Positions 21,072 to 41,238 of a stretch of 64,000 bases of DNA are shown one piece after another. Origin of the DNA: Candidatus Poribacteria bacterium (GTDB lineage Bacteria > Poribacteria > WGA-4E > WGA-3G); contig JAPOZO010000056.1 in NCBI GenBank assembly GCA_026706025.1, forward strand, positions 1-64,000. Direction: 5' to 3'. Position 1 is the stretch's first letter; each line of letters begins with the position of its first letter. Under the pieces are notes generated by a model. It was not told the origin of the DNA and did no database searches. It saw nothing but the letters and a program-made list of their open reading frames with translations. The translations under genes and the position numbers were made by a program.

Positions 21072-21343
21072 AATTAGGCAACCGTTTTGTCCATCTCCCG
21101 CGTCTTTATAATTGAAACGCGGATCTACGTGAATGCGAACAGAATCCCCTAAAGAATCAATCGTTAGGTACGTTAATTGTAAGGAGATAAAAGATGAAAA
21201 GAAATTGGTTGATTTCTACAGTTTTGGTGGCTTCAATTATCGGCTTATGCCTAAGCCTTCAAAGTTGTGCCAGAAATAAAATAAATCTGCGAAAAACATT
21301 GGATACGAAGGAAACCATGCGGGTGCAGGCATATTGGGATCCG
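21072..21343 (+). repeat. Duplicated promoter plus lipoprotein leader (copy of 25616-25886)
   Basis: About 272 bp, with only scattered differences from 25616-25886. It includes the ECF-type motif, the untranslated leader and the first roughly 50 codons of selenoprotein A. Homology stops at the GGGATCC shared by both copies. Confidence 0.85.
21078..21104 (+). promoter_or_regulatory. ECF-type promoter motif A
   Basis: GCAACCGTTTTG then GCGTCTTTATAAT. GCAAC and GCGTC start 22 bp apart, 90 bp before the ATG at 21194. Drives the copied leader and probably the ABC permeases. Confidence 0.65.
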
Positions 21344-21421
21344 ATAAACCCGAAACTTTGCAGTTTCTACTATTCTTTTTCATTTGGAAGTGTCTCTAAT
21401 CGACAAACACCAAACTTTTAG
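21194..21421 (+). pseudogene. Truncated lipoprotein: leader copy of selenoprotein A
   Basis: 75 aa. The first 52 residues (signal peptide, lipobox LSLQSC, then NKINLRKTLDT) are nearly identical to selenoprotein A at 25738. After WDPI the sequence is unrelated (NPKLCSFYYS...) and ends at TAG. It may still be translated as a short lipoprotein or leader peptide, since it keeps promoter and ribosome site. The permease ATG follows 10 bp later, so it may now serve as a translated leader for the transport genes. Confidence 0.7.
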
Positions 21422-21430
21422 GGAGATGTC

Positions 21431-22918
21431 ATGCTACGAACACTTATCCGTCAAGAACTTCTGGCCCATCTGATGAGTGCACGTTTTTTTGCTGCTGTTG
21501 TCATTACGCTTCTACTTGTTGTCGCCAATGCTGTCGTACTTCTTGAAGATTACGAGCGTCGGTTGTCGAAATATAACCAGCAAGAAAATGCACATCGTGA
21601 GAAGGCACAAGAAGCGAGAACCTATTCGATGCTAAAACTGTCTACTGAACGTCCGCCGAACCCCTTAAGTCTTTTTAGTGCCGGATTGGATAAGCGGCTT
21701 GGCACCACTTTTGACATTTACCACGGTTTCGTCCCGATGATTTCGGATGGCTCGGCGCGAAGTCTCGATAACGCGTTTCTCAACCTCTTTTCAAAGATTG
21801 ATCTCGTCTTTATTTTTCAAGTTGTTTTGAGCCTGATGGCACTGCTTTTCGCTTACGACGCAATTGCAGGAGATTGGGAAAACGGCACCTTGCGTCTGGT
21901 TATTTCTCACCCTGTGAGACGCGGAACCATTCTACTTGCGAAATATATTGGAGCAATGGTCTGTCTGCTGCTTCCAGTGCTGATGAGTCTGCTGATGGTC
22001 CTGATTCTGTTATCCACTGTCGGTTCAATCCAATTGGATGGAGAAGATTTTCTCCGGATTGGTGGGATAGTTTTGACGACGACCATCTACTTGTCTGCAT
22101 TTTATCTGATCGGACTGTTGATTTCTACCACAACGCGCCGCACTGCTACATCCCTGATGCTCTGTATGTTCTTGTGGGTAACTTTAGTGCTCGTCTATCC
22201 GAATTGGAGTCGGTTTGCTATCACCCCCGTTGGTGATACACGGGCAATACGATCATCATCAGATCAGCAGATTGAACAGATTTGGGAAGAGGTTGATAGA
22301 GAAGAAAGCCGGTTCTTAGCCAATAGTCCGCTTGAAGGCAAACCTCGAAAGTTTAATCTGGATGTCCAGCAGTCAAATAGTTTCTCGTCAGCGGGACACC
22401 TCAACAGACGGTATGGTATGGATATGAAATTGGGAACGGAATCAGATCCGTTAGTGCCACATGTTCAAAAGTATCATGCCGCCATGGGTGCCTTATACAT
22501 CCGTTCGGCGGAACAAATTGCTTTAGCACGAAAACAGACCTTAGACAGCACCGCTCTCCGGGAATCAATATGGCATGAACGCCTGATGAAACTCAGTCCT
22601 GCAAGTTTGTATACGTTCGCAACTGCTGCGTGGGCGGGCACGGATCTGGAGGGTATGTTTGATTTTATCCAAACCGTTCAGGGGTACCGGCTTACGGTCA
22701 TTGACTATTTTCACGATAAGGATGCGTTTGGGAGTCGGCAATGGTTCGCCTCCGATAAAGGTTCAGTAGACTGGTGGGATCTGCCCCAGTTTCACTTTAA
22801 TCGGGTAGATATTTTGGAAAATGCAACGCGAGCACTGCCAGAATTGTTTCTGCTTCTACTCATCAACCTCGTTCTGTTCACGGTAGCATTTCTGATTTTC
22901 ATCAAAATTGAAGTATAA
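21431..22918 (+). CDS. ABC-2 type transporter permease (DUF3526-like), subunit 1
   Basis: 495 aa. Ribosome site AGGGAG before the ATG. An N-terminal TM helix (about 20-38), a long extracytoplasmic loop, a membrane block (about 115-260, including the ENGTLRLVISHPVRR segment typical of ABC-2/NosY-like permeases) and a last helix at 470-492. Paired with a homologous permease 27 bp downstream. No ATP-binding subunit lies in this part of the window, so it must act with an ATPase encoded elsewhere. Substrate unknown. Confidence 0.82.
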   Translation: MLRTLIRQELLAHLMSARFFAAVVITLLLVVANAVVLLEDYERRLSKYNQQENAHREKAQEARTYSMLKLSTERPPNPLSLFSAGLDKRLGTTFDIYHGFVPMISDGSARSLDNAFLNLFSKIDLVFIFQVVLSLMALLFAYDAIAGDWENGTLRLVISHPVRRGTILLAKYIGAMVCLLLPVLMSLLMVLILLSTVGSIQLDGEDFLRIGGIVLTTTIYLSAFYLIGLLISTTTRRTATSLMLCMFLWVTLVLVYPNWSRFAITPVGDTRAIRSSSDQQIEQIWEEVDREESRFLANSPLEGKPRKFNLDVQQSNSFSSAGHLNRRYGMDMKLGTESDPLVPHVQKYHAAMGALYIRSAEQIALARKQTLDSTALRESIWHERLMKLSPASLYTFATAAWAGTDLEGMFDFIQTVQGYRLTVIDYFHDKDAFGSRQWFASDKGSVDWWDLPQFHFNRVDILENATRALPELFLLLLINLVLFTVAFLIFIKIEV

Positions 22919-22945
22919 AGGTTATCAGGTAAAGGAACATAAAAA

Positions 22946-24472
22946 ATGATTTGGCATATCATCAAACGTGAACTCTTTGACCACATCAATAGCCTGCGCT
23001 TTATTTTAACGGTTGTAATGCTTTCCGCCTTAATGATTACCAACGCTGTGGTGCATCTTCGGACGCACCCGAAAAAAATCCGTAATTATTCTGAGAACGT
23101 TACCAAATCCTTTAACAAGTTGGAATCTCGGACAGAGTTGTATTCTCTGGCAGAAAAGGGGCCCGGTAACCTCTACAAACGCCCTTCCCCACTTGCCTTC
23201 ATCGCCGACGGCGGTAATGCTTATCTGCCGGGACATATATTCAACGAGGGGTCTTGGTCGAAAAGCAGTGCAGGTGGCAAGTTAAAAAGCAACTGGTGGT
23301 TGAGTTACGGCACTGTGAACCCAGACGCAAAAGATCTGCGTCCGCAGGCAACGAAGATAGATTGGGTATTTATTATCACCTATTTGCTTTCCTTCATTCC
23401 GCTCCTATTTACTTTTGATGCGCTTTCTGGGGAGCGAGAACAAGGGACCTTGCGATTGTGTCTTGCGAATCCGATTTCGCGCCCCGTTCTGTTAATCGGT
23501 AAATTTTTAGGGACGTTAATAACCGTCCTCATTCCGTTTGTTTTGGCAGTGTTGCTGAATCTGGCGGTGATTTCGATCGATAGTTGGACACAACTGAGCG
23601 CAGCCGACTGGGGACGTTTAGGGTTGATCCTGTTGATTGCTTCCAGCTATGCGGGTATCTTTGTCGGGTTGGGGCTGATGGTTTCCGCTGGTACGCGCGA
23701 GCCTCGGATGAGCCTTGTTGTGCTCTTATTGATTTGGGTGGCGGCTGTGGTTTTTATGCCATCTACCCTCGGCACCCTCTCCACAAAGTGGATGCCACCT
23801 GTCCAAACGATTGATCAATTTCGTGCTTCAAGAGAAGCAATCCTTGACCAGATTAACGCAGACTATAATGACCGATTGAACGCAATCAAAGAAAAAAAGA
23901 CCCCTAACCTTCCAAACTTAAGTGAACTTCAGAAACTTTTTGAAACGTCACCTGAAGCTGCCAGAGCCGAAGCAGAAAAGTATAGAGCGGCGTGGGAAAC
24001 GGAGGGTGAGGAAGAATTGGCACTCAAGGCGGAACTCGTCAACAGAGATGTAGAGGTTCGAGAACGCTTTAACCGCGAGTATTTAGACGCACAAATCGCG
24101 CAGGTACAGCGGGCAAGAGTTGTAACCCGGTTTTCACCGGCAGCGATTGTCCAATACGCCCTTGAATCAATGGCAGGTACTGGCTTTAACCGGCATTTGC
24201 AATATTTAGAACACGTACATGATTACACAAGACAATTTCGACAATTCATCGTCGAAACCGATAGTGCAGACCCACAAAGTCGTCATCTTATCGGTATCCG
24301 TGAGGGTATGTCTCAGAAGCCGTTCTCGAGTGAGGCGATTCCAAAATTTGAGGATCAGATCGCCTTCAGCGATACATTTAACACTGCGACCTTGGATCTG
24401 CTGCTACTCATTTTACTGCTCGGAGTGTTTCTTTCAGGGGCATTTCTTATCTTCATACGTTCAGCTGTATAA
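22946..24472 (+). CDS. ABC-2 type transporter permease, subunit 2
   Basis: 508 aa, same architecture as the preceding gene: TM helix near 15-33, periplasmic loop with coiled-coil-like Glu/Lys-rich stretch (about 290-390), membrane block 135-275 with EREQGTLRLCLANPISRPVL, final helix 480-503. The two permeases probably form a heterodimer. No ABC ATPase gene is adjacent. Confidence 0.82.
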   Translation: MIWHIIKRELFDHINSLRFILTVVMLSALMITNAVVHLRTHPKKIRNYSENVTKSFNKLESRTELYSLAEKGPGNLYKRPSPLAFIADGGNAYLPGHIFNEGSWSKSSAGGKLKSNWWLSYGTVNPDAKDLRPQATKIDWVFIITYLLSFIPLLFTFDALSGEREQGTLRLCLANPISRPVLLIGKFLGTLITVLIPFVLAVLLNLAVISIDSWTQLSAADWGRLGLILLIASSYAGIFVGLGLMVSAGTREPRMSLVVLLLIWVAAVVFMPSTLGTLSTKWMPPVQTIDQFRASREAILDQINADYNDRLNAIKEKKTPNLPNLSELQKLFETSPEAARAEAEKYRAAWETEGEEELALKAELVNRDVEVRERFNREYLDAQIAQVQRARVVTRFSPAAIVQYALESMAGTGFNRHLQYLEHVHDYTRQFRQFIVETDSADPQSRHLIGIREGMSQKPFSSEAIPKFEDQIAFSDTFNTATLDLLLLILLLGVFLSGAFLIFIRSAV

Positions 24473-25737: not shown

Positions 25738-26988
25738 ATGAGAAGAAATTGGTTGATTTCTACAGTTTTGGTGGCTTCAATTATCGGTTTATGCATAAGC
25801 CTTCAAAGTTGTGCCAAAAATAAAATAAATCTGCGAAAAACATTGGATACCCAGGAAACCATGCGGGTGCAGGCATATTGGGATCCAATTGCAGATGCTT
25901 CGCTCGGTTTGCCCGATCATTCACCGAAGCATGTCGCGCTGTTTAAGAATCTCGTACCGGCGCACGTCAGTCGAGAATATGACGTAGACGCTTTCAAAGC
26001 TTTTTTTCCTAAAGGATCCGCTCCTGTTGGACACGTGTGGGAACTGGATATGAACGATGTCCTTCTGTTTCTCCGCCAATTCCACCCAGGGGCAACCGCT
26101 GAGATGCACATAAATCCGGGCGGAGAAGGTGCCATAGAGATATTTGGTCGGCATATAACTCTGATAAAGGTAGGTCTGGAGTCAGAGGGTGCCTTCGCAT
26201 GTCTTCGCGCACTTTCACCGACTTATGCCGAAATTGTTTTCAGAATCCATGCTGAATTCCAACTCGATGAAGAGGCGCGCGCCTATTTTACACCCGCACA
26301 ATTCACTGGACGGTTGATACTTAATCGGAGCAACGGCACTATTCGCGATTTTTGGCTTCATCTCCCACCGCGTAATACCAATGTTGACCTCAACGCCTTC
26401 GGCGGTGCGGATATGGTTTACGTGCCGCGCATGGAACTCATCGCACAAAACGCGCATGATGAGAGTGATATTGTCTGGGAGACTGCTATTACAGAGGCGG
26501 TGGCGCAGTCGGCATTAAAGGCTGCCTTCTACAAATCTGCCGAAATTGAGAGGCACCCCGTTAAGGAGGCTGTTGCACAAGCGCAAGTGGAGAATCGCCC
26601 TATTCATGTGGTTCTCACATGGGGTGTGTTTGACGACGAATCGTGCTGAGCGAGCGGTAAAACTTTGAGGGCAGTTGTCCTCTCCGATTCAAAAATCGTA
26701 AAATTGCTCAATAAGCACTACGTCAACGTATTCCTTCTGATTCGGGATCTGCGTGAACTTCAGAACGAAACGAAGGATGAGTCCATAAGTAGATTCGCAA
26801 GCACGATTTCCACAACGTTTGACGCGGCCGTCGCGCGGGGCGTAGATGGTTCTGTCAACAGTTTTGTACTATCGCCCCAATTGGAGTTGATAAGTCATTT
26901 ACCTTATGAGGATCTAATAAAACCGAATGAGGTCATTGACGATACATACCTGACATTTCTAAAGGATGCTCTGACCAAAAACAAGTAG
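25738..26988 (+). CDS. Candidate selenoprotein A: lipoprotein with in-frame TGA (Sec304)
   Basis: Read through the TGA at 26647-26649 this is 416 aa. ATG follows AAGGAG. Lipobox SLQSC (Cys25). The N-terminal domain has the family marks YAEIVFRIHAEF and FTPAQFTGRL. The TGA sits in DDESC-U-ASGKTLRA, after which the same frame continues to a TAG with residues (VLSDSKIVKLLNKHYVNVF) matching the other three paralogues. A GAGGGC/GTCCTC hairpin lies 17 nt after the TGA. It lacks the C-terminal beta domain present in B-D. Known: UGA can encode selenocysteine if SelA/SelB/SelC/SelD are present. None is in this window. Alternative: two separate ORFs. Confidence 0.75.
26667..26682 (+). promoter_or_regulatory. 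bSECIS-like hairpin, selenoprotein A
   Basis: GAGGGC-AGTT-GTCCTC, six base pairs including one G-U, loop beginning AG. It starts at +18 after the TGA. Same position as in the three paralogues. Confidence 0.6.
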
Positions 26989-27056
26989 GTGTGTTCTGAA
27001 ACTGAAACTATAGGTGTCAATTTAGGGATATTTCTCGTTATTTCGTAGTAGCATCT

Positions 27057-27128
27057 CTACAAATGCCGCCCCTCTGGGGCTTAGGTCTTTTTGGGCAGCT
27101 GCTATAAACATATCGTCCCTACGGGACT
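27057..27128 (+). repeat. REP family II pair, second location
   Basis: ATGCCGCCCCTCTGGGGCT and ATATCGTCCCTACGGGACT, with compensated stem changes relative to 18731-18805 (CCCTTACAGGG to CCCCTCTGGGG). Confidence 0.7.
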
Positions 27129-27167
27129 GAAGAGGGTTTTGAAGTTATCAAGGGTTCCGCGGAGGAT

Positions 27168-27237
27168 CCGGTTCGGTTGGGAATGCAGATCGCATTTGGG
27201 CGAGTACGCCGCAAAACCGAACCTACCGGACCTGGGG
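27168..27237. repeat. Structured repeat, copy 2 (inner hairpin deleted)
   Basis: Same ends as 18847-18950 (CCGGTTCGGTT and AACCGAACCTACCGG), but the central GAATGCC/GGGCATTC hairpin segment is missing. Confidence 0.7.
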
Positions 27238-27305
27238 ATCAAGACGGTTATTTTTTCTAAATTGACACTTATGGTGTGTTCTGAAACTGAAACCAACAAA
27301 ATTAG

Positions 27306-27332
27306 GCAACCGTTTTGTCTGTTGCCCGCGTC
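27306..27332 (+). promoter_or_regulatory. ECF-type promoter motif C
   Basis: GCAACCGTTTTG then GCGTCACTATATAT, 22 bp start to start, 52 bp before the ATG of selenoprotein B. Confidence 0.65.
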
Positions 27333-27383
27333 ACTATATATCAAGATTAGGATCTACGCGAACGACATTTAAGGAGACTGAAA

Positions 27384-29054
27384 ATGAAAACCTTAACCAT
27401 TGCTCTTATTATTCTAATGATGATAGGTGGACAACTGAATGCCGACAACCACTCGGCAGCTAATAACAAAATAACACTTAACCTTGATGGCACATCAGAG
27501 GTATTAGTAAAAGGCTTTATTGCACCGATTGAATACACACAATATAACTACCATGTAGAGTGGGACGAGTTGGCAAACCTACGGGTTGCTGAACCTGAAA
27601 AGCGGTATCCGACATCGGTTTTTCACGCTTTTCTGCCAGACCAAGCAGTTTCGGTCGGTGCTCTCTGGCAAATCGAGGAAAAAGGAGCGTTGGAATTGCT
27701 GAAGCAACTTCACCCCAATCCAAGTCTGAATATGCACATCAATACAGGGGATTCTTACGGTTTGTGGGCGTGCCTGCGTGCTTACAACGATCAATACGCT
27801 GACATTGTATTTCGCATCCATGCGGAATTCGTTTTAGAGAACGGTTGGTTTACACCGTCACAGTTTACTGGACATCTTGTTGTTGACCGAATCAAAAAGG
27901 AAATTGTGTTTTTCGAGATGTACGTTCCTGAAGGGGTCTTGAATTTTGATGTCAACTGGAAAAGATTTGGCGGGCGCATTACTGACATCGGTTTTTGCCC
28001 GCAAATAGAACTCCGTGCCGGAAGGCAAGATGTTTTGCAAAACAACATGTTCACGGAATCTATTACCCAAGAAGCCGCGGAACGCGCCCTGATATTGCGT
28101 TTCTACAAATCACAGCAGATTAACTGGGTGTCCCTTGAAGAGGCGTTGAAGATGGCACCAACACAACAAAAACCGGTTCACGCCCTTTCAATAGATGGAC
28201 CGCTTGCAGACGAGTCGTGCTGAGGGAGCGGCAAAAGCCTGAGGGCAGGTGTCCTCTCCGATGACCGACTTATAGCATTCTTGAATGAGAATTTCATTAA
28301 CATATGGATACCGAATTCTGAATTAGGGCGCGTCCCGAGCTTACAGGATCCGATTGCCAAGAGACGCGAGCGAGAATCTAAGACGTTTGACACGACGCAT
28401 GCTTTGGCACAAGCAATCATGAAAGGGTGGAAACAACACTCACCTGCGGACTCTTTGGTAATCTCACCAAAATTTGAATTGATGGGTAGGCTTCCAGTCA
28501 ATGAACGTATTTCGCCATATAACGGCGCAGAGGGGTATCTTTTATTTCTCCAAGAATCCTTGGATAAAAAACTCCCCGGTTTAGGTGAGGAATCCTCGGA
28601 ACTGAAACCAACAGATTGGGATACACTCCTTGAAAATGCTGTCGAATCCGGCGCGATTGTAGCTGACGGTTTGAAGGTTGTGCTCACCAATGAGCATCCT
28701 AAGCAGGAGATCCTCAGCGTTTTTCGGAAGCCCGATTACACTGTTGTTGAGATTGATACAACTGCGTTTAAAGATGGTGGCTTACTCACTATTGATATCT
28801 GGGTGGGAGATGCTGAGGTTGCCGGTTCATTTGACCTGTTTGTTGGTAACACGACAGAACTCGTGTCTGACAACGCGCTTGCCTCTATAAAGGATATTCC
28901 AACGAATCAGAGAGAAGTTATCAAGTATCCTTTGGATCGGGGTGGTATCTTTAAGTTAGGGGCTATCGCCAGCGCGAAAGGGAACGGGAAAATCAACGGA
29001 TTTCTCGCAAAGATCTCTGTGGAACCTGTGTCCGAAAAAAACGAGGGAAATTAA
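27384..29054 (+). CDS. Candidate selenoprotein B: exported thioredoxin-like protein (Sec280)
   Basis: 556 aa through the in-frame TGA at 28221-28223. AAGGAG ribosome site. Signal peptide about 1-20. N-terminal domain about 60-270 with WACLRAYNDQYADIVF and FTPSQFTGHL. The active-site-like stretch LSIDGPLADESC-U-GSGKS starts a thioredoxin-like beta-alpha-beta (LRAGVLSDDRLIAFLNE, then FINIWI). C-terminal beta domain about 450-550 (YTVVEIDTTAFKDGG, KINGFLAKISV). Frame and homology continue without interruption for 277 codons after the TGA. The WD40 gene starts immediately after the stop. Function inferred: extracytoplasmic thiol/selenol redox. Confidence 0.8.
28241..28256 (+). promoter_or_regulatory. 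bSECIS-like hairpin, selenoprotein B
   Basis: GAGGGC-AGGT-GTCCTC, starting 18 nt after the TGA. The CAGGT loop start resembles the E. coli fdhF element (GCAGGTCTGC). Confidence 0.7.
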
Positions 29055-30131
29055 ATGGATATGAAAATGACGAAATTAATAAGTTTTATTCTCAGTTTGA
29101 CCGTTGCTGTATTTCTCGCAAATGGGTTTGCTGGGGGCTTACCCGTAGGTGCTATCGCCCAAATTGATACTGGACAGCAATCTGTTAACGCTATCGCATA
29201 TTCTCGAGTCGCAAATCGACTTGCAGTGGCAGCGGCAGAAAACATCCGTATCTATGATGCGAATACCTATAAGGAACTGATGGTGTTTGTTGGACATACG
29301 GATTCGGTATTAGCAGTTACCTTCTCCCCAAATGGTAAACGCCTCGTGAGTGGCGGTTCAGACGAGACGGTGCGTTTATGGGAGGCAGACACCGGTAAAC
29401 TTTTGCGGACCCGCGAGGAACATACGGGACCTATCAATGCTGTCGCTTTTTCTGCCAATGGTGAAAAGTTTTGGAGTGGTGGCAACACAGACCCGGCAAT
29501 TCGATCTTGGTTTTCGGCTGACGGTGGAAAAGCGAGCAAAGGTGGTTTCATGCCTGCGGATGTTTTCACTGCAACAGCATTTCCATCCGGAGGCGAAACC
29601 GCAGCGAGAGCCTTGGATAAGGCATCAGCTCACAAAGATTTGGTTAAGTTTTTGTTGGAAAGTGGTGATAACCTTGGGACGAGTATTGCTTTCCTTTCTG
29701 GAGTTAACAATCCAGGTATCATATCTGGGCATACGGATTCAGTGAATGTACTAACCCTCTATGCAGATCAGAAGACCCTCGCGACTGGAAGTATGGACAA
29801 AACGATCCAACTATGGAATATGGCAGACCCCAAGAAATCGCTTCATATCCTTGCAGGGCATACCGAGGGTATTACAGCCATGGACTTCTCAGTAAATGGT
29901 AAACGCCTTGCAAGTGGGAGTTTTGATAAGACGGTCCGATTATGGGATGTTGTCACCGGACAGCATCTTCGGACGCTTACTGGACATACAGGCGAAATCG
30001 GTGCGGTGACGTTCTTAGGAGATAAAACACTTGCCGGCATCGGATTTGCTGAAGCCAAAACACTTGCCACTGGAAGTTCAGATGGCACTGTTTTTATTTG
30101 GGACCTGAATAAAATCGTCTCAACGGATTAG
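29055..30131 (+). CDS. Secreted WD40-repeat protein, partner of selenoprotein B
   Basis: 358 aa. ATG at 29055 directly follows the selenoprotein stop TAA (29052-29054). An in-frame ATG at 29061 is equally possible and matches the start of the paralogue at 32448. Signal peptide, then about six WD40 repeats (for example RLVSGGSDETVRLWEADTG and RLASGSFDKTVRLWD), enough for one propeller. One central repeat is degenerate (about residues 150-210). Tight coupling suggests that it works with the selenoprotein outside the membrane. Partner unproven. Confidence 0.85.
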   Translation: MDMKMTKLISFILSLTVAVFLANGFAGGLPVGAIAQIDTGQQSVNAIAYSRVANRLAVAAAENIRIYDANTYKELMVFVGHTDSVLAVTFSPNGKRLVSGGSDETVRLWEADTGKLLRTREEHTGPINAVAFSANGEKFWSGGNTDPAIRSWFSADGGKASKGGFMPADVFTATAFPSGGETAARALDKASAHKDLVKFLLESGDNLGTSIAFLSGVNNPGIISGHTDSVNVLTLYADQKTLATGSMDKTIQLWNMADPKKSLHILAGHTEGITAMDFSVNGKRLASGSFDKTVRLWDVVTGQHLRTLTGHTGEIGAVTFLGDKTLAGIGFAEAKTLATGSSDGTVFIWDLNKIVSTD

Positions 30132-30137
30132 CGTCTA

Positions 30138-30146
30138 TGTTATAAT
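30138..30146 (+). promoter_or_regulatory. Extended -10 promoter for 30254 gene
   Basis: TGTTATAAT 7 bp after the WD40 stop. The same block (GCGTCTATGTTATAATCTAC) follows the paralogous WD40 gene at 33475-33494, ahead of selenoprotein D. Confidence 0.45.
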
Positions 30147-30253
30147 CTACATGCACAGACATCCGAAATAACAGAGTTATGACATTTCTGATAAAAATGA
30201 TTTTGTTAGCTACTCTTGCATGAACACTAACAACTATAGAGGAGATTTTGACA

Positions 30254-30628
30254 ATGCTTAGTAACGTTCTTTACATTCTAAATTTTATGGTATACTTGGG
30301 TCTTGCAGTATTGCTGGTGTTTATATGTTTACGAACGAGATCAAAGGGATTGATTCTTATTAGCGCGATACTTCTTACCGGTGGAATCTTTAATTCGATT
30401 TTTGAACAAGGTATTGATTTCTATATGGAACAATGGATAGCGCGTGAGGCAGCCAGCGACGGCGTGTGGAATATGAATGCTGCAGAGTTCCTAATGGGAG
30501 TTGCCTTGGTAGAATCCTTGCTATACGGATGTTTATGTTTGATCGGTGGCTTCCTTGTCTATAGGGAGTGGCGACTCGGAAAGTTTCGCAACCCTCAACC
30601 TGAACATTTAGAAGAATCTACGGCATAA
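30254..30628 (+). CDS. Small membrane protein, three to four TM helices
   Basis: About 124 aa from ATG 30254 (GGAG at 30241). TM segments about 4-22, 30-45 and 78-100. The charged C-terminus REWRLGKFRNPQPEHLEE is likely cytoplasmic. I do not recognise a family. It sits between the two selenoprotein-WD40 units and has no counterpart after the second. Confidence 0.65.
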   Translation: MLSNVLYILNFMVYLGLAVLLVFICLRTRSKGLILISAILLTGGIFNSIFEQGIDFYMEQWIAREAASDGVWNMNAAEFLMGVALVESLLYGCLCLIGGFLVYREWRLGKFRNPQPEHLEESTA

Positions 30629-30637
30629 CGAAATCAA

Positions 30638-30730
30638 TTATAGTAAAGCTCGAAGATATGTGGACACTTTAGCAACACAAAATTCCCGCTTGCAAGCGGG
30701 GGGTCCAATTAATTGTGGACTTTACTATAA
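30638..30730. mobile_element. MITE-like palindromic element upstream of selenoprotein C
   Basis: TTATAGTAAAG at 30638-30648 pairs with CTTTACTATAA at 30720-30730. The middle has CCCGCTTGCAAGCGGG. No ORF. It may contribute promoter sequence to the next gene, 28 bp away. A relative of the left half lies at 63901-63934. Confidence 0.6.
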
Positions 30731-30757
30731 CTTGTACAAACGACAAGGAGATGGAAA

Positions 30758-32443
30758 ATGAGAACCTTAAGCGTTGCGCTACTCGTTCTAATCGTAATAA
30801 GTGGACAACTCAACGCCGACAACCCCTCGGCAGCGAACAACAAAATCACACTTAACCTTGACGATACATCAGAAATATTAGTGAAAGGGTTTATCGCCCC
30901 GGTTGGAGAGAGTTTGTCTGATAACTTTAAGCAGTGGGACGCGTTGGTAAATCTGCGAGTTGCTGAACCCGAAAAACAACATCCGGCATCGGTTTTCCAA
31001 GCTTTTCTTCCGAACAAACCGGTTTCGGTGGGTGACCTCTGGGTACCAGATATGATAAGAGTCGTTACCTTGCTCAGGCAACTGCATCCGAATCCTAATT
31101 TCTTTCTCCATATCAATTCCGGCGATTCCTTCGGTTTATGGGCATGCCTGCGTGCTTACAACGATCAATACGCCGACATCGTGTTTCGGATCCATGCAGA
31201 ATTTAAACTCAAAGACGGGTGGTTTACACCGTCACAGTTCACAGGACATCTTGTCATTGACCGGAACAAAGAGAAAGTCGCTTTCTTTGAGATGTATGTT
31301 CCTAAAGGCGTAATAAACTTTGATGTTAACTGGAAGCGAGATAAAGGCTCTATGGTCACAAGCACCGGTTTTTGCTCGAAAATGGAACTCCGTGCTGGAA
31401 TGCAAGATCTTCTCGAAAACGTTGAATTCACAGCATCTATTACGCAAGCAGCCGCGGAACGCGCACTGATATTGCGTTTCTACAAGTCCGAACAAATCAA
31501 TTGGGTGCCACTCGATCAGGTGTTGGAGATAGCGCAAGCACAGCAGAAACCGATTCATGTGATCTCCATAGATGGACCGTTAGCCGATGAGTCGTGCTGA
31601 GGGAGCGGCAAAAGCCTGAGGGCAGGTGTCCTCTCCGACGACAAAAACATCGAATTCATGAACGAAAACTTTATTAACGCTTGGGTATTAAATACGGAAT
31701 TAGATCGCACGTCTAAGAAACCAGAACGCATAGCCTATAGACAACAGCAAGGGTTCAACCTTATTGACAAGACGCTCCCATTAGCACAGGCAATCATGAA
31801 AGGCTGGAAGAAACATTCACCCGCAGATTCTTTGGTGATCTCGCCGAAACTTGAACTGATGGGTAGACTGCCGGTCAATGAACGAACGCCACCTTACAAC
31901 GGTGCAAAAGGGTATCTCTTATTTCTTCAAGATGCCTTGGAGGGGAAGTTCCCCGGGTTTCGTGAGGATACCTCAACACATTGGAATACGCTCCTTGAAA
32001 CCGCTGTTGAATCGGGTGCTATTAAAGATGACGGTTTGAGTGTTGTACTCACCGATGAACACGCCGAGAAAGAAATCCTTAGCGTTTTTCGGGCATCTGA
32101 TACCGACGCTCACAATTACCACAATTACACTGTCGTTGAGATTGACGCGACACCGTTTAAAGATGGCGGCGTGCTTGCGATTGATGTCTGGGTCGGGGAA
32201 GCCGAAGTGTCCGGTTCATTTGATCTATTTGCTGGAGATACTACAAAACTCATGCCAGACAATGCCCTCGCTTCTGCAAGGGATATTCCAACGAATCAAA
32301 AGGAAATTATCAAATACCGTTTTGATCGCGGTCAAGTCTTTAAGTTAGGGGCTATCGGCAATGCCAGTGAGAAAGGCAAAATCAACGGATTTCTCGCGAA
32401 AATCTCTGTAGAACCTGCGTTCGTAAAAAACGACGGAAACTAA
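30758..32443 (+). CDS. Candidate selenoprotein C: exported thioredoxin-like protein (Sec281)
   Basis: 561 aa through the TGA at 31598-31600. ATG after AAGGAGATGGAAA. Architecture as in B: signal peptide, N-terminal domain with YADIVFRIHAEF, then PLADESC-U-GSGKS followed by LRAGVLSDDKNIEFMNE and FINAW, and the C-terminal beta domain (YTVVEIDATPFKDGG). The two halves share frame and are collinear with B and D. WD40 gene follows 4 bp later. Upstream promoter may lie in the MITE-like element. No ECF-type motif seen here. Confidence 0.8.
31618..31633 (+). promoter_or_regulatory. bSECIS-like hairpin, selenoprotein C
   Basis: Identical to that of B: GAGGGC-AGGT-GTCCTC at +18 after the TGA. Confidence 0.7.
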
Positions 32444-32447
32444 AAAT

Positions 32448-33476
32448 ATGAAAATGACGAAATTAGTAAGTTTTATTCCTATTTTGACCGTCGCTGTATT
32501 TCTCGCAAACGGATGGGCAGGAGACTTACCGATGGGTGCAATTGCTCGAATTGATGTCGGTGAGGGACCTGTAAACGCCATCGCATATTCTCGATCCACA
32601 AATCGGATCGCTGTAGCCGCTGCGAACAGCATCTATATCTACGATGCGAGCACCTATGAAAAACAGATGGTATTTACCGAACATACCGATTCGGTGTTAG
32701 CCGTCGCCTTTTCTCCGAACGGCAAACGTCTCGTCAGTGGCGGTTTGGACAAGACGGTACGGTTGTGGCATGCCGACACCGGGAAACTCAGAAATACCCG
32801 CGAAGAACACACAGCACCTGTGAATACGGTTGCGTTCTCTGTTGATGGTAAAAGGTTTTGGAGTGCAAGTAGCGAAAACAACACAATTCGGTCTTGGTAT
32901 GCGCGTGATGGTGGGCGCTGGAGTTCTCGAGTTTCTTCAAATACGAATGTTGTGTTCATAGCAATCGCATGTTCATACAAGGGGGCACCCGTGGCAAAGG
33001 CAAGAGCGTTAGATAGTATGAGTGATTGCATTATTGAGTTCAGAGGCGGTAATCATTGGCGTGTTGTAAGTGGACATGCAGATCCGGTTAGCGTCCTAAC
33101 CCTTTATGCGGATGGAAAAACCCTCGCCACTGGAAGCGCGGACAAGACAATTGAGTTGTGGAATAAAGCAGACACCAACAAACCGCTTCATACGCTTACA
33201 GGGCATACAGGCGGTATAACTGCTATAGACTTTTCAGTAGATGCGAAACTTCTTGCCAGTGGGAGTTCAGATAAAACGGTTCGGTTGTGGGATCTTACAA
33301 CTGGGCAATCCATCCAGACATTCTCAGGACACACAGGTGAAATCGGGGCTGTGATATTCTTAGAAGACAAAGCACTTGTGGGAATAGCACTCGCCAAAGC
33401 GAAAGCTCTTGTCAGTGGAGGTTCAGATGGCACCGTTTTCATCTGGAATCTGGACAAAATCGTCTCAGCTGATTAG
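32448..33476 (+). CDS. Secreted WD40-repeat protein, partner of selenoprotein C
   Basis: 342 aa, paralogue of 29055-30131. Signal peptide (VSFIPILTVAVFLANGWAG), then WD40 repeats with DKTVRLW and DGTVFIWNLDK. The central part (about 140-205) has diverged more than the rest. 4 bp behind selenoprotein C, so cotranscribed. Confidence 0.85.
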   Translation: MKMTKLVSFIPILTVAVFLANGWAGDLPMGAIARIDVGEGPVNAIAYSRSTNRIAVAAANSIYIYDASTYEKQMVFTEHTDSVLAVAFSPNGKRLVSGGLDKTVRLWHADTGKLRNTREEHTAPVNTVAFSVDGKRFWSASSENNTIRSWYARDGGRWSSRVSSNTNVVFIAIACSYKGAPVAKARALDSMSDCIIEFRGGNHWRVVSGHADPVSVLTLYADGKTLATGSADKTIELWNKADTNKPLHTLTGHTGGITAIDFSVDAKLLASGSSDKTVRLWDLTTGQSIQTFSGHTGEIGAVIFLEDKALVGIALAKAKALVSGGSDGTVFIWNLDKIVSAD

Positions 33477-33482
33477 CGTCTA

Positions 33483-33491
33483 TGTTATAAT
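33483..33491 (+). promoter_or_regulatory. Extended -10 promoter candidate for selenoprotein D
   Basis: TGTTATAAT, 7 bp after the WD40 stop and about 120 bp before the ATG at 33613. Paralogous to 30138-30146. A GCGTC precedes it, but the matching -35 is absent. Confidence 0.45.
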
Positions 33492-33612
33492 CTACGCAGA
33501 TGTACAAGATAACAGATCTATGGAGTTTCTCATACACACTATTTCATTCGGTAATATCACGTGAATACCTACAATTTTTTCAACTTGTGCTAACCATAAG
33601 GAGATTTTGAAA

Positions 33613-35319
33613 ATGAAAGCCCTAACCGTTGCCCTTTTCATTCTAATAGTGATGGGTGGACAACTCAACGCCGACAACCACTCGGCAGCGAACAAGAAAA
33701 TAACGCTTAACCTTACAGATACTTCAGAAGTCTCAGTGACAGGTTTCATCGCCCCGATTGAGAACACCGGCTCCAATTTCCATGTGGAATGGGATGCGTT
33801 GGCAAATCTGCGAGTTGCTGAACCTGAAAAACGGCATCCCGCATCGGTTTTCCAAGCGTTTCTTCCGAACAAACCGGTTTCGGTGGGTGACCTCTGGGTA
33901 CCAGATATGATAGGTATCGTAAACTTGTTTAAGCAACTGCATCCGAATCCTAATTTCTTTCTCCATATCAATGCCGGGGATTCGTTCGGTTTGTGGGCGT
34001 GCCTGCGCGCTTACAACGATCAATACGCCGACATTGTGTTTCGGATCCATGCGGAGTTCAAACTCGAAGATGGGTGGTTTACACCGTCGCAGTTCACAGG
34101 ACATCTTGTCATTGACCGGAACAAAGAGAAAGTCGCTTTCTTTGAGATGTATGTTCCTGAAGGCGTAATAAATTTCGATGTTAACTGGAAACAAGATAAA
34201 AACGACTCCCATTTTCATACGACTACCGGTTTTTGCTCGAAAATAGAACTCCGCGCTGGAAATCAGGAGTTGCTGAAGAGCATCAAATTCACAGAAACTA
34301 TCACCCAAGAGGAAGCCGAACGCGCACTGATACATAAGTTCTATAGATCGGAGCGAATTAATTGGGTGCCGCCAGAGCAGGTACTGGTGCAGGCAGAAGC
34401 GCAGCAGAAACCGATTCATGCGATCTCCATAGATGGTCCATTAGTTGACGAGTCGTGCTGAGGGAGCGGCAAAAGCCTGAGGGCAGGTGTCCTCTCCGAT
34501 GACCGTATTATCAAATTCTTGAACGAAAATTTCATCAATACTTGGGTATCAAATGTCGAATTAGGACGTACCCGCAATAAGCGCGCCTTTATTGCAGCGA
34601 GAATCCAGCAAGGCTTCAAACCGTTTGACCAAACCCATCCATTAGCACAGGCAATCATGAAGGGATGGAAGTTACGTTCCCCCGCAGATTCTTTAGTGAT
34701 CTCAACGGATCTTGATGTGATGGGCAGACTCCCTGTCAATGAACGGATTTCTCCCTACAACGGACCAAAAGGTTACCTTTTATTTCTCCAAGAATCCTTA
34801 GATGAGAAACGTCCCGGATTGCCTGAACCTGCCCGGGAACCGCCATCAATGGATTGGAATACGTTCCTTGGAACGGCTGTCGAGTCCGGTGCGATTGTTA
34901 ATGACGGTTTGAGCGTTGTGCTTACCCGTGAGCATCCTGAGCAAGAAGTTCTCAGCATTTTCCGGACACCCGGACAGGGTTATCAAGACTATACCGTCGT
35001 TGAAATTGATACAACTGCGTTTAAAGATGGAGGTGTGCTGACTATTACCATCTCGGTCGGTGATGCTGAATCTCCTGGTTCGTTTGATCTTTATGATGGT
35101 AATACTCAGCTTCCGACAGAAGGGGCACCTGATGGTGCGCTTACCTCGGCGTGGGATGTTCCTCCCGGCACAAAAGGCACAATCGAGTATCCTTTTCAGC
35201 AAGGCAACGTTTTTCGGTTAGGGGCTACGGGCAGTTGGCTCAGTGAGAAAGGCAAAATCAACGGGTTCCTCGCTGAATTTTCTGTGAAACCTACACCAGA
35301 AAAGAGCAACGAAAATTGA
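33613..35319 (+). CDS. Candidate selenoprotein D: exported thioredoxin-like protein (Sec283)
   Basis: 568 aa from ATG 33613 (AAGGAG at 33598-33603, better placed than the TTG at 33607). In-frame TGA at 34459-34461 in VDESC-U-GSGKS. After it the frame stays open to a real TGA stop at 35317-35319 and keeps all family blocks (LRAGVLSDDRIIKFLNE, FINTW, SPADSLVIS, C-terminal YTVVEIDTTAFKDGG). Signal peptide 1-20. Instead of a WD40 gene, sigma factor 1 follows after 40 bp and carries the same C-terminal domain. Confidence 0.8.
34479..34494 (+). promoter_or_regulatory. bSECIS-like hairpin, selenoprotein D
   Basis: GAGGGC-AGGT-GTCCTC at +18 after the TGA, identical to B and C. Confidence 0.7.
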
Positions 35320-35359: not shown

Positions 35360-36691
35360 ATGGCAAACAATGATGTCGAACTCATCCAACAAAGCCTTGC
35401 AGGCGACCAAAGTGCTTTCGCTAATTTGGTAAAAAAATACCAAAAGTCTGTCCACGCGCTTGCATGGCGGAAGATAGGGGATTTCCACATCGCTGAAGAG
35501 GTTACACAGGACACCTTCCTGCAAGTCCATAAAAAACTGGAGACCCTGAAGGATCCACATCGGTTTGAGGGATGGCTGTATAGAATCGCTTCACGCCAGT
35601 GCCACGCCTGGCTTAGAAAGAAACGGATGCAGACGCAATCGTTGGAGGAAACCGACCCCGCGCTGATAGAAAAGATGACGTATTCTCAATACATTGCCGA
35701 AGAGCAGGCAAAGGCTGCGACAGAAGCACAGCGCAGTATCGCCCATAAATTGCTTGCACGGCTGCGGGAAAGTGAACGTACCGTTGTTACACTCCACTAC
35801 TTCGGAGAAATGACGGTTGAAGAGATTAGCCGGTTTTTAGGTGTGTCGGCGAGTACCATTAAAAGTCGGCTCCGTCGCGCCCGGCTCCGTCTCAAAAAAG
35901 CCGAACCGATGATCCGAGAGGCACTGGAGGGTTTCCAAATCAGGGCGAATCTCACCGAGAATATCATGCAAGAAATCTCACGCATTGAACCCGTGGTCCC
36001 CGCCGGTGGTAAACCGTTCATTCCGTGGGCAATCGCCGCTTCAACCCTTGCCCTCGTGGTGTTGGCACTTGGTGTCAGCAATGCGTATCTAACGCGTTTC
36101 CAGCAGCCTTACAACTTTGATGCCACATCGGAGATGACAGTAGAACTCATTGATACGCCGATTGTTCTGAATCTGGCATCGAAACCGGATGTGCGCACCC
36201 AAATCGGTAAGTCTACTATACCTAATAGAGGCAGTGGGTTTACCCCAAGCATGAGTCAATCCGAATATATGCCAAGATTTCTCACCGCACAGACACAGAT
36301 CGTTACACTCAACGATGCGGAGCCTTCGCGAGATGTTTTGAGTGTCTTCCGGACACCAGACGCTGAATATCAAGATTACACCGTTGTTGAGATTGATACG
36401 ACAGCGTTTAAAGAGGGCGGTGTCCTCACTGTTGAACTCTGGATGGGGAGCGCAGAGGCTGCGGGGGCTTTCATCCTGTTTGACAGCGACACCGAACTCG
36501 CTACAGACGGGATGCCCAAAGTTATACTGACCGCAGCATCGGGGATCGTCCCCGGTAAATCGGGGAGGCTCACGCACCGTTTTGACAAAGGCGGACGTTT
36601 TAAGTTAGGTGCCACCGGTAATGCATTCAGTGGAAAAGGAAAAGTTAACTCCTTTCTCGCAACAATCTCTGTAGACTCCGCCCCAAGATAA
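35360..36691 (+). CDS. Membrane-anchored ECF sigma factor 1 with selenoprotein-type beta domain
   Basis: 443 aa. Sigma-2 (about 5-85, with AWRKIGDFHIAEEVTQDTFL) and sigma-4 (about 130-185, SERTVVTLHYFGEM...SASTIKSRLRRAR). Then a conserved TENIMQEIS helix, a TM helix (about 221-243, PWAIAASTLALVVLALGV), a conserved outer segment (NFDATSEMTVELI) and a C-terminal beta domain (about 328-443, YTVVEIDTTAFKEGG) homologous to the ends of selenoproteins B-D. Expected topology: sigma inside, C-terminus outside. Cotranscription with selenoprotein D is likely. Confidence 0.85.
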   Translation: MANNDVELIQQSLAGDQSAFANLVKKYQKSVHALAWRKIGDFHIAEEVTQDTFLQVHKKLETLKDPHRFEGWLYRIASRQCHAWLRKKRMQTQSLEETDPALIEKMTYSQYIAEEQAKAATEAQRSIAHKLLARLRESERTVVTLHYFGEMTVEEISRFLGVSASTIKSRLRRARLRLKKAEPMIREALEGFQIRANLTENIMQEISRIEPVVPAGGKPFIPWAIAASTLALVVLALGVSNAYLTRFQQPYNFDATSEMTVELIDTPIVLNLASKPDVRTQIGKSTIPNRGSGFTPSMSQSEYMPRFLTAQTQIVTLNDAEPSRDVLSVFRTPDAEYQDYTVVEIDTTAFKEGGVLTVELWMGSAEAAGAFILFDSDTELATDGMPKVILTAASGIVPGKSGRLTHRFDKGGRFKLGATGNAFSGKGKVNSFLATISVDSAPR

Positions 36692-38160: not shown

Positions 38161-41100
38161 ATGAAACAAGAAAACGATGCTCAGTTAATCGACGATATCT
38201 TGTCTGGCGACACCACCGCATTTAACACTTTGGTCGAAAAGTACCAAAAGAGTGTCCACGCGCTCGTCTGGCGAAAAATCGGTGATTTTCATTACGCTGA
38301 AGAGATTACACAAGATACCTTCCTACAGGCATATAAAAAACTTTCGACGCTCAAGAATCCGAATCTATTCGCCGGATGGCTGTATGTCATTGCAAATCGA
38401 CTCAGCATCAAGTGGCTACGAGAGCAAAAACCTGTCCCACAATCGTTAGAGACCATACCTGTGAACGAGATAGAAGAATCCTCTTATACGCGTTATGTGT
38501 CCGAACATCAGGATATAAACGCAACCGAGTATCGCCGCGAACTCGTCCAAAAACTTCTCGAAAAACTCCCTGATAGTGAACGCACGGTTATGACACTTTA
38601 CTATCTCAGTGAAATGACGACCAAGGAGATTGGCAAATTCTTGGGAGTCTCGGTGCACACGATTACGAGTCGGCTCCAGCGGGCAAGAAAACGTCTACAG
38701 CGTGACGAAGAACGCTTGGTTCAGGAGGTGCTCGGCGGTGTACAGGTCTCGGCACGTCTCAGCGAGAATATCATGCGAGAAGTCGCAGAGATAGAAACGA
38801 CATCTCCACCAATTAGCAAACCGTTGCTACCGTGGGCGGCTTTTAGTGCAGCCGTGGTCTTGATCGTCGTGCTGCTTGGCACAAGCAACCAATACCTTGC
38901 GCGCTTTCAGAAACCGTATAGCTTCGAGGCACAATCTGAACCGACTATCGAAATTATTGATACACTTGTTACGCTTGATATCGATTCAAAACCGGATGTC
39001 CGAAATCAGATTGGACAAGCTGCGTTCCCCGGAAAAAGCAACAGTCATGGTTTACAGACCTCTGAAACGCCGCTGGCAGCTACCGTCGGAGTGGATGCTG
39101 CAAAGTTTTCTACCTCGCAGTGGATGCAGGTATCTGGACCTCAAAAGGGACCCGCCTATGGCATCTTTACGACCCCCGAAGGAACGCTCCACGCCTCTAC
39201 ACAGACAGGTATTTACAGATTACCAACGGGAGAAACGACGTGGGGGCGCATCAATGCAAATCCATCAATTAATAGGGGCTACATATCAATGGCAGCATAT
39301 AGGGACACCCTCTATATCGCTTCCATTGATGAAATCTTTGCTTCAAATGACGATGGCGAGACGTGGCACGTCTTTTGCTCGCGACCCAGCGGACGTGCTG
39401 TTGGATTGGTAATAACCGATGCCCCCGAATCCACCCGTTCGCCAACACCTATTACAATGTATCTCGCTCTCCGAGATAAAGGCGTTTTCCAATCTACGGA
39501 TGCCGGCACCGAGTGGAATTTACTTAGTGAAGGATTAACAAACAGACGCATTTACAGCATTGCTGCGATTGAAAACAGGGTATTTGTTGGAACAGATGAA
39601 GGACTCTACCGCCTCAACGCGGGTGTTTGGCAGGAATTATCGGTGGATGCCGCCAAAACTACCCAATCTCTTGAGAACTTTGAAGACAAGACTCCTACTA
39701 ACACAGACAGCGGTTTCTATCGTTTCAGCTCAGGTATTTGGGAACAGGTGCCGATAGAATCTGTCAATGCTATTCATGCCTTAGCAGCCTTTGAGAATAA
39801 TCTTTATGTTGGCATGGGACCGGATCTGTCTATGTGGGCGAGATCGACGAAATCGGAATTAGCGGAATTAGGTGTAATAGTGGATGTGAACTCGGTGCAG
39901 GGCGGAATTTTTCGCTCAGCAGACTTGGGGGAATCATGGACTGAGATAACGCCTAAGGATAAACCGCTCTTTTTTACAGTCCTAACCGGTATAAAGCTTT
40001 TGGTTGCGGGTGAGACGCTCCTCGTACAAGGTGTTGAACAATTCCGGTCAACAGACGCGGGGCGGACTTGGACGCAATTGGACACTGCCCCTGTTCCGTC
40101 TCCACTTGATTTCCGACGAATAGTCGCGGCGGATGAAAGGGTTTTTTATTCAATTGGCGGAGACGGTGTTTATCGCACAACGGATGCTGGCGACTCATGG
40201 CATCTATTTATGGCGGGTGTCATAGGAACGGGGATTCGGAGTTTGGTAGCATTCAACAACGGACTCTGTGCGTATACCGGCAGAGACATCGTTCAGTCAA
40301 CCGATGGTGGCGAATCGTGGAAAAGGATTCCCGTTGATACTGACGATTACTTCATGTTGTCTTATGGTTCAAAGTTAACGGTTAAAGATGGTAAGCTTTA
40401 TGGCATCGCATCTGAAGTGAAAAATTTTCGGATTTTCGGTCTATCTGCGGAGGGTGATACCCTCGTTCCAAGAGAAAAAACACCTGCTTTTGATGAAGAA
40501 ATGCTTTCCACCGAGTCGTGGAAAACGCTTGCAGCGGCAGAACAGTTCCATTTGCCTGATGACCTCGAAGAGAACCCTCAGTTGACGAAAACATTGCGCA
40601 ATATGACTACCTTTGCAAGGGTCGGCGGATTTGCAGTCAGTGGTGAGACATTCTATGTCGAGTACCTCCGGCGGCTTTTCAAGTGGAAACCCGGCGACCC
40701 GGAATGGACGGATACTGGATTAATAGACCTTACGCAAAAATCCCCTTGGGGTCAGCGAGGCTATGGGTTCAAGTTAGCCGCATCTGGAGAAACCGTCTAC
40801 GTCGGGAAGCGAGATGGTAAGTTGTTTCAATCATTTGACGGTGGAAACAGTTGGAGAGATATCACGTTAATCCTTCCGCTTCGTTTTACGTATTTCAAGG
40901 AGATAGTTTTTGCGGGATCAACGGTTCATGTTGCAACAGATACGGGTGTTTTGGCTTCACAGAACGGGGAACACTGGCGCGTGCTGACCGATGGAATGGG
41001 GCAGAGTCCCGTTATAGACATGTTCGCTGTAGATGGTACCACGGTTTATGGTGCTGGTAATGCGGGTGCCTATCATTTAGGGAGCCGTGGCAAGTGGGAA

Positions 41101-41238
41101 CAGGTTTCTCCAAATGTTCCGGGTAAAATTATCTCTCTCGCCATCAATAACGACAGACTTTATGTTGTTGCCTCACGTCGTGGGTTATTTCACATCCCAC
41201 TTGATGAGAAATTTCACAAGGCATCAATCAGTGAATAG
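38161..41238 (+). CDS. Membrane-anchored ECF sigma factor 2 with Asp-box propeller
   Basis: 1025 aa. Sigma-2/sigma-4 (about 5-190), TM helix about 221-243 (PWAAFSAAVVLIVVLLGT), then the conserved segment YSFEAQSEPTIEIID. From about 319 there are at least six BNR/Asp-box motifs (STDAGTEW, SADLGESW, STDAGRTW, TTDAGDSW, STDGGESW, SFDGGNSW), as in Ycf48/sortilin-like propellers, to near the end. It probably senses or binds something outside. Known relatives with Asp boxes include sialidases, but catalytic residues are not recognisable here. Confidence 0.85.
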   Translation: MKQENDAQLIDDILSGDTTAFNTLVEKYQKSVHALVWRKIGDFHYAEEITQDTFLQAYKKLSTLKNPNLFAGWLYVIANRLSIKWLREQKPVPQSLETIPVNEIEESSYTRYVSEHQDINATEYRRELVQKLLEKLPDSERTVMTLYYLSEMTTKEIGKFLGVSVHTITSRLQRARKRLQRDEERLVQEVLGGVQVSARLSENIMREVAEIETTSPPISKPLLPWAAFSAAVVLIVVLLGTSNQYLARFQKPYSFEAQSEPTIEIIDTLVTLDIDSKPDVRNQIGQAAFPGKSNSHGLQTSETPLAATVGVDAAKFSTSQWMQVSGPQKGPAYGIFTTPEGTLHASTQTGIYRLPTGETTWGRINANPSINRGYISMAAYRDTLYIASIDEIFASNDDGETWHVFCSRPSGRAVGLVITDAPESTRSPTPITMYLALRDKGVFQSTDAGTEWNLLSEGLTNRRIYSIAAIENRVFVGTDEGLYRLNAGVWQELSVDAAKTTQSLENFEDKTPTNTDSGFYRFSSGIWEQVPIESVNAIHALAAFENNLYVGMGPDLSMWARSTKSELAELGVIVDVNSVQGGIFRSADLGESWTEITPKDKPLFFTVLTGIKLLVAGETLLVQGVEQFRSTDAGRTWTQLDTAPVPSPLDFRRIVAADERVFYSIGGDGVYRTTDAGDSWHLFMAGVIGTGIRSLVAFNNGLCAYTGRDIVQSTDGGESWKRIPVDTDDYFMLSYGSKLTVKDGKLYGIASEVKNFRIFGLSAEGDTLVPREKTPAFDEEMLSTESWKTLAAAEQFHLPDDLEENPQLTKTLRNMTTFARVGGFAVSGETFYVEYLRRLFKWKPGDPEWTDTGLIDLTQKSPWGQRGYGFKLAASGETVYVGKRDGKLFQSFDGGNSWRDITLILPLRFTYFKEIVFAGSTVHVATDTGVLASQNGEHWRVLTDGMGQSPVIDMFAVDGTTVYGAGNAGAYHLGSRGKWEQVSPNVPGKIISLAINNDRLYVVASRRGLFHIPLDEKFHKASISE

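Follow-up and report, generated by a model that had tools for sequence, protein, structure and literature searches.

Selenoprotein N (SELENON, also SEPN1) is known from animals, sponges included, and in rare cases from algae, and it occurs there almost exclusively in its selenocysteine (Sec) form. The literature names a SCUG motif for this protein, and redox control of calcium pumping (SERCA) is a biochemical property of the animal form. Work on the human protein with a U428C variant found that the residue at the Sec position is the reduced one and attacks substrates, and that a mutant of the neighbouring cysteine traps partner proteins. Mutations in SEPN1 lead to a group of human muscle diseases, and the chemistry of the protein is poorly understood and still debated. 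A 2026 review of SEPN1 places orthologues in vertebrates and some invertebrates; bacteria are not mentioned. Here we describe four paralogous genes, A to D, in a stretch of 64,000 nucleotides (C56:1-64000, hereafter the window) from a 6.27 Mb assembly of Candidatus Poribacteria, a sponge-associated bacterium. They very probably encode selenoproteins of a bacterial branch of the SELENON/SEPN1 family that is greatly expanded in Candidatus Poribacteria, in which UGA is decoded as Sec and whose products would act as exported reductases with a thioredoxin (Trx) fold.

All four genes lie on the forward strand. Gene A (25738..26988) encodes a short SelN-like protein of 416 aa with a possible lipobox (LQSC), an N-terminal β-rich domain and a Trx-like domain at its end. 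Genes B (27384..29054; 556 aa), C (30758..32443; 561 aa) and D (33607..35319; ~570 aa) encode long forms in which this architecture is followed by an extra C-terminal β domain. All products have signal-like N-termini. The codon at 33607 is a TTG, so translation of D more likely starts from the ATG at 33613. Each open frame contains one TGA, assigned as the Sec codon by frame reading and column alignment, at 26647..26649 in A (preceded by TGC), 28221..28223 in B, 31598..31600 in C and 34459..34461 in D. A preliminary description of this locus had proposed exactly such a set of exported paralogues, and we verified both the positions and the open frames. The conserved surroundings that it listed, a DESC-U-(G/A)SGK(S/T)LRA block and the downstream VLSD, LN and F(I/V)N, were likewise found in all four proteins. 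As it also anticipated, ordinary gene callers cut such selenoprotein genes in two. Ten SelN-like genes with TGA occur genome-wide, on contigs C56, C63, C34 and C2.

None of A to D has a match above threshold in Pfam, NCBIfam or, by sequence, the PDB, and the preliminary description did not recognise the family. The motif DESCUGSGKxLR led us to consider selenoprotein N as a relative, and the relationship is borne out by sequence comparison. The human SELENON sequence used for this purpose was entered by hand rather than taken from a database record, and its residues were compared with the published numbering. A profile of 84 bacterial proteins matches it with an E-value of 1e-67 in two blocks (human residues 193-371 and 399-583), and no match of the profile was obtained among 2000 shuffles. 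Individually, all 84 bacterial proteins match human SELENON; gene product A does so at 31% identity over 393 columns (E 1e-42). A Trx-like selenoprotein family unrelated to SELENON that had converged around a Cys-Sec-Gly motif would have in its favour that the human sequence was entered by hand and that the match is best organised in the Trx domain, a common fold. We nevertheless regard convergence as very improbable. The N-terminal domain also matches (human 193-371, 101 bits, including FRIHAEF and F-P-QF-GH), 44 human residues agree with bacterial columns of 90% or higher conservation, and the human sequence used fits the published numbering. It carries R5, Q8, R27, H52, S78, R291, Sec462 and R466 at their published numbers, and also has the four glycosylation sites and, in isoform-2 numbering, the C427/U428 pair and N204.

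The homology includes positions of medical relevance. R291, H293, G315, C461, Sec462 and R469 (human numbering) are invariant in all 84 bacterial proteins, R291 and H293 corresponding to R144 and H146 of C, and N340 is present wherever it is aligned. R466 is replaced by Lys in 82 of the 84. Patient variants reported in human SEPN1 include R291Q, c.943G>A (codon 315), Sec462Arg and R466Q/W; the disease residues R291, G315, C461 and Sec462 are shared without exception. The vicinal Cys-Sec pair is strict, as the preliminary description had supposed: Cys and Sec stand in 84/84 proteins, followed by Gly in 70 and Ala in 14, and Ser precedes the pair in 121 of 149 contexts. The bacterial proteins are homologous to SELENON over the whole luminal region and share with it a Cys-Sec pair of the SCUG type in an (S/A)C-U-(G/A) centre, a Trx-like domain and an active site outside the cytosol. 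No SEPN1-related structure was present in the PDB copy that we searched. Bacterial homologues with invariant disease residues supply a wealth of natural variants as well as fresh candidates for expression and crystallography, and the bacteria may serve as simple models of SELENON and as a clue to its origin.

There are also clear differences from the animal protein. No EF-hand was detected in Pfam scans, the match of B to D begins at human residue 184 or later, and the type II membrane anchor that precedes the EF-hand in SELENON is absent as well. Because of the missing EF-hand we file the proteins as a branch of the SELENON family and not as SELENON itself. The calcium-sensing part looks like either a eukaryotic addition or a loss in the bacterial proteins. 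Moreover, the bacterial genes carry an in-frame hairpin in place of a selenocysteine insertion sequence (SECIS) in the 3' untranslated region, they reach about ten or more copies per genome, and their long forms have the extra C-terminal β domain. In a FastTree tree the human protein falls among the bacterial ones with base supports of 0.2-0.5, values too low to tell whether transfer ran from bacteria to eukaryotes or the other way. Animal SEPN1 mRNA contains a recoding hairpin after the UGA, the selenocysteine redefinition element (SRE), which is mutated in some patients. One could imagine a bacterial origin of SELENON, as an exported reductase that depended on Sec and was later acquired by an early eukaryote, perhaps via symbionts of sponge ancestors, with the animal SRE as a remnant of the bacterial SECIS; we consider this scenario rather doubtful.

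Comparative data show that the TGA is recoded. Among 164 distinct family copies from the fetched loci, 163 have TGA at the Sec column and a single one has GGA, a pattern far outside what chance would give; the preceding codon is TGC in every copy but one, which has TGT. In the 149 distinct gap-free contexts Cys always precedes TGA (148 TGC, one TGT). The preliminary description had suggested inspecting this column in homologues, and neither TGT nor TGC occurs there. Cys homologues, which are usual but not defining for bacterial selenoproteins, are thus missing among the 164 copies; SELENON, too, is nearly always found in its Sec form. Gly and Ser forms exist, the Ser copy (L136) having TCA, one base from TGA. 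That no Cys form turned up suggests that the chemistry cannot do without Sec. Ahead of the TGA the median ratio of nonsynonymous to synonymous substitution rates (dN/dS; 513 pairs) is 0.178, and from codon +14 onward it is 0.204; purifying selection acts on both sides of a conserved in-frame TGA, as in bacterial selenoproteins. We give next to no credence to the idea that the TGA is a real stop in decaying or truncated genes. The splitting of the frames by gene callers and the few copies that lack Sec (Gly, Ser) or are frameshifted (in genome G062, below) would agree with it, but the constraint past the TGA is similar to that before it, and the codon is maintained across the phylum and even in a single family copy on a contig labelled Deltaproteobacteria (L113), where Cys is again followed by TGA.

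The clearly coding frame past the TGA would equally suit a genome-wide readthrough or reassignment of TGA to another amino acid without selenium. However, 48 of 152 family genes end on TGA (62 on TAA and 42 on TAG), including gene D with its ordinary terminator at 35317, as the preliminary description had pointed out. We therefore rejected reassignment, whose probability we put close to nil; a reassigned codon would also be expected to swap with its synonyms, whereas this column is fixed, and the genome has complete Sec machinery and a SECIS-like hairpin after the TGA. Decoding of the UGA as Sec thus remains the reading that we adopt.

A Gly-for-Sec paralogue (Cys-GGA) was observed in two species, at L119:6265-7581 and in L162 (G062:C115), the G062 copy having 76% DNA identity to the first. 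The genome with the first Gly copy has an intact tRNA-Sec. It seems that a Sec-less Gly paralogue persists in two species, perhaps as a non-catalytic member of the family.

A second signal in the RNA is pointed to by the low synonymous distance in codons +1 to +13, 0.195 against ~0.8 further downstream. Within this stretch GAGGGC-AGGU-GUCCUC can form a hairpin at +20 to +35 of the RNA, beginning 17 nt past the TGA. By folding and pairing comparison it was placed at 28241..28256 in B, 31618..31633 in C and 34479..34494 in D, and as GAGGGC-AGUU-GUCCUC at 26667..26682 in A. For the 24 nt that start at +15 the folding energy is -9.4 kcal/mol, compared with -3.2 kcal/mol for synonymous recodings of the same peptides (z -2.8); against such recodings, stretches well upstream or from +30 on gave no folding signal. 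Six pairs are retained in 121 of 122 distinct sequences, with two-sided changes at several pairs. The stem has the register of A to D in 83 of them and is shifted in 39 with pairing retained, for example in GAGAGCG-GGUC-CGCUCUC. A consensus folding of the gap-free alignment finds the outer three pairs only, because the register shifts among sequences. Positions 27-29 are always GGU, GUU or CGU, which gives a loop pattern of (G/C)-(G/U)-U. The SelB protein of E. coli recognises a GU-bearing loop. A hairpin of the bacterial SECIS type with a G/U-bearing apical loop is thus present, and it appears more weakly when single sequences are folded.

The machinery for Sec incorporation, which the preliminary description had recommended looking for, is complete in the source genome. 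It encodes a tRNA-Sec (78.1 bits, anticodon TCA), selA (604 bits), selB adjoining the tRNA-Sec gene (353 bits) and selD (360 bits; L142, G000:C56:238667-239590). The last has an in-frame TGA of its own and is probably a selenoprotein gene itself. The preliminary description had named three findings that would speak against it, namely a genome lacking Sec machinery, homologues with unrelated residues or a plain stop at the column, and a lack of coding constraint past the TGA. All three were looked for and none was obtained, and the earlier suggestion of a probable selenoprotein family is supported. Nearly all close relatives among named records are metagenome-assembled genomes of Candidatus Poribacteria, and the family occurs in 65 of 85 genomes of the phylum; nearly all of the copies listed carry TGA, mostly exactly one. 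A tRNA-Sec above the cut-off was found in 58 of the 65 genomes with the family and in 14 of the 20 without it, an association that is only weakly informative, since Sec use extends beyond the family. Among the seven family-bearing genomes without a tRNA-Sec over the cut-off, a full-length selA is present in three and fragments of selA in one, and the remaining three gave no selA over background.

One genome, G062 (96% complete), seems to be in the course of losing Sec use. Its tRNA-Sec gene (C54:31550-31900, L161) adjoins an intact selB and lacks the 3' part with the T arm and acceptor strand; it scores 39.5 bits and was missed by ARAGORN. No selA was detected in this genome. Among its family copies, one is split by frameshifts, one is the Gly form and others keep TGA. 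This is what one would expect if Sec use had been lost recently and the copies had then begun to decay, with assembly faults as another possibility, and we count it in favour of the Sec reading.

At the structural level, the AlphaFold models are good, with predicted local distance difference test values of 85.6 for C, modelled with AlphaFold2, and 82.5 for A. A fold search of the PDB with the full model of C gave mostly weak β-sandwich matches, which swamped the search, and A was therefore modelled on its own. Its best matches are the Trx folds of DsbH-type proteins, ERp19 and AGR2/3, in agreement with the Trx-like surroundings noted in the preliminary description. The Cys-Sec pair lies before a Trx helix, with Sec at the first Cys of CxxC in a hand alignment. 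DsbH (Thioredoxin_7/Thioredox_DsbH) resembles A to D in its fold and in this position, aligned by eye; in contrast, Pfam scores stay under the cut-off, and A to D have Gly where the second Cys would be and an additional Cys before the Sec. The Trx7/PDZ domain-containing selenoprotein (NF041199) is likewise a bacterial selenoprotein with a Thioredoxin_7-like domain, but has a CxxU motif instead of the vicinal CU, and A to D give no NCBIfam match. The comparison with the Gly-Cys-Sec-Gly centre of thioredoxin reductases, drawn in the preliminary description, holds only in part, for the vicinal Cys-Sec followed by Gly. The closer relative is selenoprotein N with its SCUG, homologous over the luminal part, and the Cys-Sec of thioredoxin reductase belongs to the C-terminal tail of a flavoprotein, whereas the Sec of A to D lies inside the Trx fold. 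An enzyme of that kind was rejected on architecture, as Pfam shows no FAD/NADPH domains and there is no C-terminal GCUG tail.

By analogy, we propose that A to D function as periplasmic reductases with a vicinal Cys-Sec pair. The UGA would be decoded as Sec by SelA, SelB, SelD and tRNA-Sec with the help of the in-frame SECIS-like hairpin, and the product would be exported to the periplasm or the cell surface. There, the Trx-like domain would put Sec at the attacking position of CxxC, with the resolving Cys immediately N-terminal to it. The selenolate could then reduce a disulfide or a similar oxidised group on a partner, and the resulting Cys-Sec selenenylsulfide would be re-reduced by some donor. 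A mainly peroxidatic activity of the glutathione-peroxidase or peroxiredoxin kind seems unlikely to us, although U-G-x-G at the start of the first Trx helix resembles the U-G-x-T of glutathione peroxidase, and structures of the peroxiredoxin and GPX8 types are found far down the list of fold matches. The top fold matches are instead disulfide oxidoreductases (DsbH, ERp19, AGR2/3), and published work describes the human homologue as a reductase, with a mutant at the Sec position that traps partner proteins.

Several points weigh against the assignment to an exported, Sec-containing branch of SELENON. The presence of Sec in A to D is deduced from comparative sequence data, and the reductase role is taken over from the human protein. 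The human sequence was entered by hand and not taken from a database record, though it is consistent with every published residue number checked. In the absence of an EF-hand, calcium sensing is not common to the bacterial proteins and SELENON. When 42 nt are folded alone, B to D favour a structure other than the hairpin; this alternative can form fully in only 12 of 122 relatives. Finally, neither tRNA-Sec nor a full selA was detected in three family-bearing genomes, possibly owing to assembly gaps.

A 2026 inventory (PMC13188914) comprises 119 prokaryotic selenoprotein families. We found no matching family there or in NCBIfam, Pfam or the PDB, and rejected the known bacterial selenoprotein families on the basis of the missing NCBIfam match and inventory entry. 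The authors of deep-Sep state that selenoprotein families without Cys homologues may be filtered out. The family was probably missed by surveys because these rely on Cys homologues, which it lacks. Our literature search found no paper linking Poribacteria with selenoproteins and none relevant to bacterial SELENON, while subscription papers, preprints or automated domain databases may mention them; one paper that treats both Poribacteria and selenocysteine notes only an enrichment of SelA/SelB in sponge symbionts. Among viral contigs, 106 pattern matches included no relative. New here is a bacterial, EF-hand-free, multi-copy branch of SELENON, which hints at counterparts of some animal selenoproteins in the bacterial symbionts of sponges.

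The genes are embedded in a recurrent neighbourhood, all on the forward strand where the features next to B, C and D are concerned. Exported WD40 β-propeller proteins are interleaved with the selenoprotein genes, directly 3' of B (29055..30131, by domain scan) and of C (32448..33476, by similarity to related loci), and similar proteins occur in 20 related loci. An ABC-2 permease pair at 21431-24472, 5' of the cluster, recurs in 17 and 18 related loci. At 21212-21373 the initial 60 positions of the family profile find a short match (E 1e-10, L029), perhaps a remnant of another family copy. Downstream of D lies the gene for an extracytoplasmic function (ECF) sigma factor (35360..36691). Its C-terminal part (36299-36685, E 2e-34) is homologous to the extra domain at the end of B to D, and one may speculate that this common domain binds a common partner or surface. 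Very long extensions at the C-terminus are a feature of this and two further ECF sigma factors, at 38161-41238 and 46044-48962. One of the three shares the selenoprotein C-terminal domain, one carries a Sortilin-Vps10/BNR propeller and one a Big_5 domain, and the three proteins may be fusions with extracytoplasmic sensor domains.

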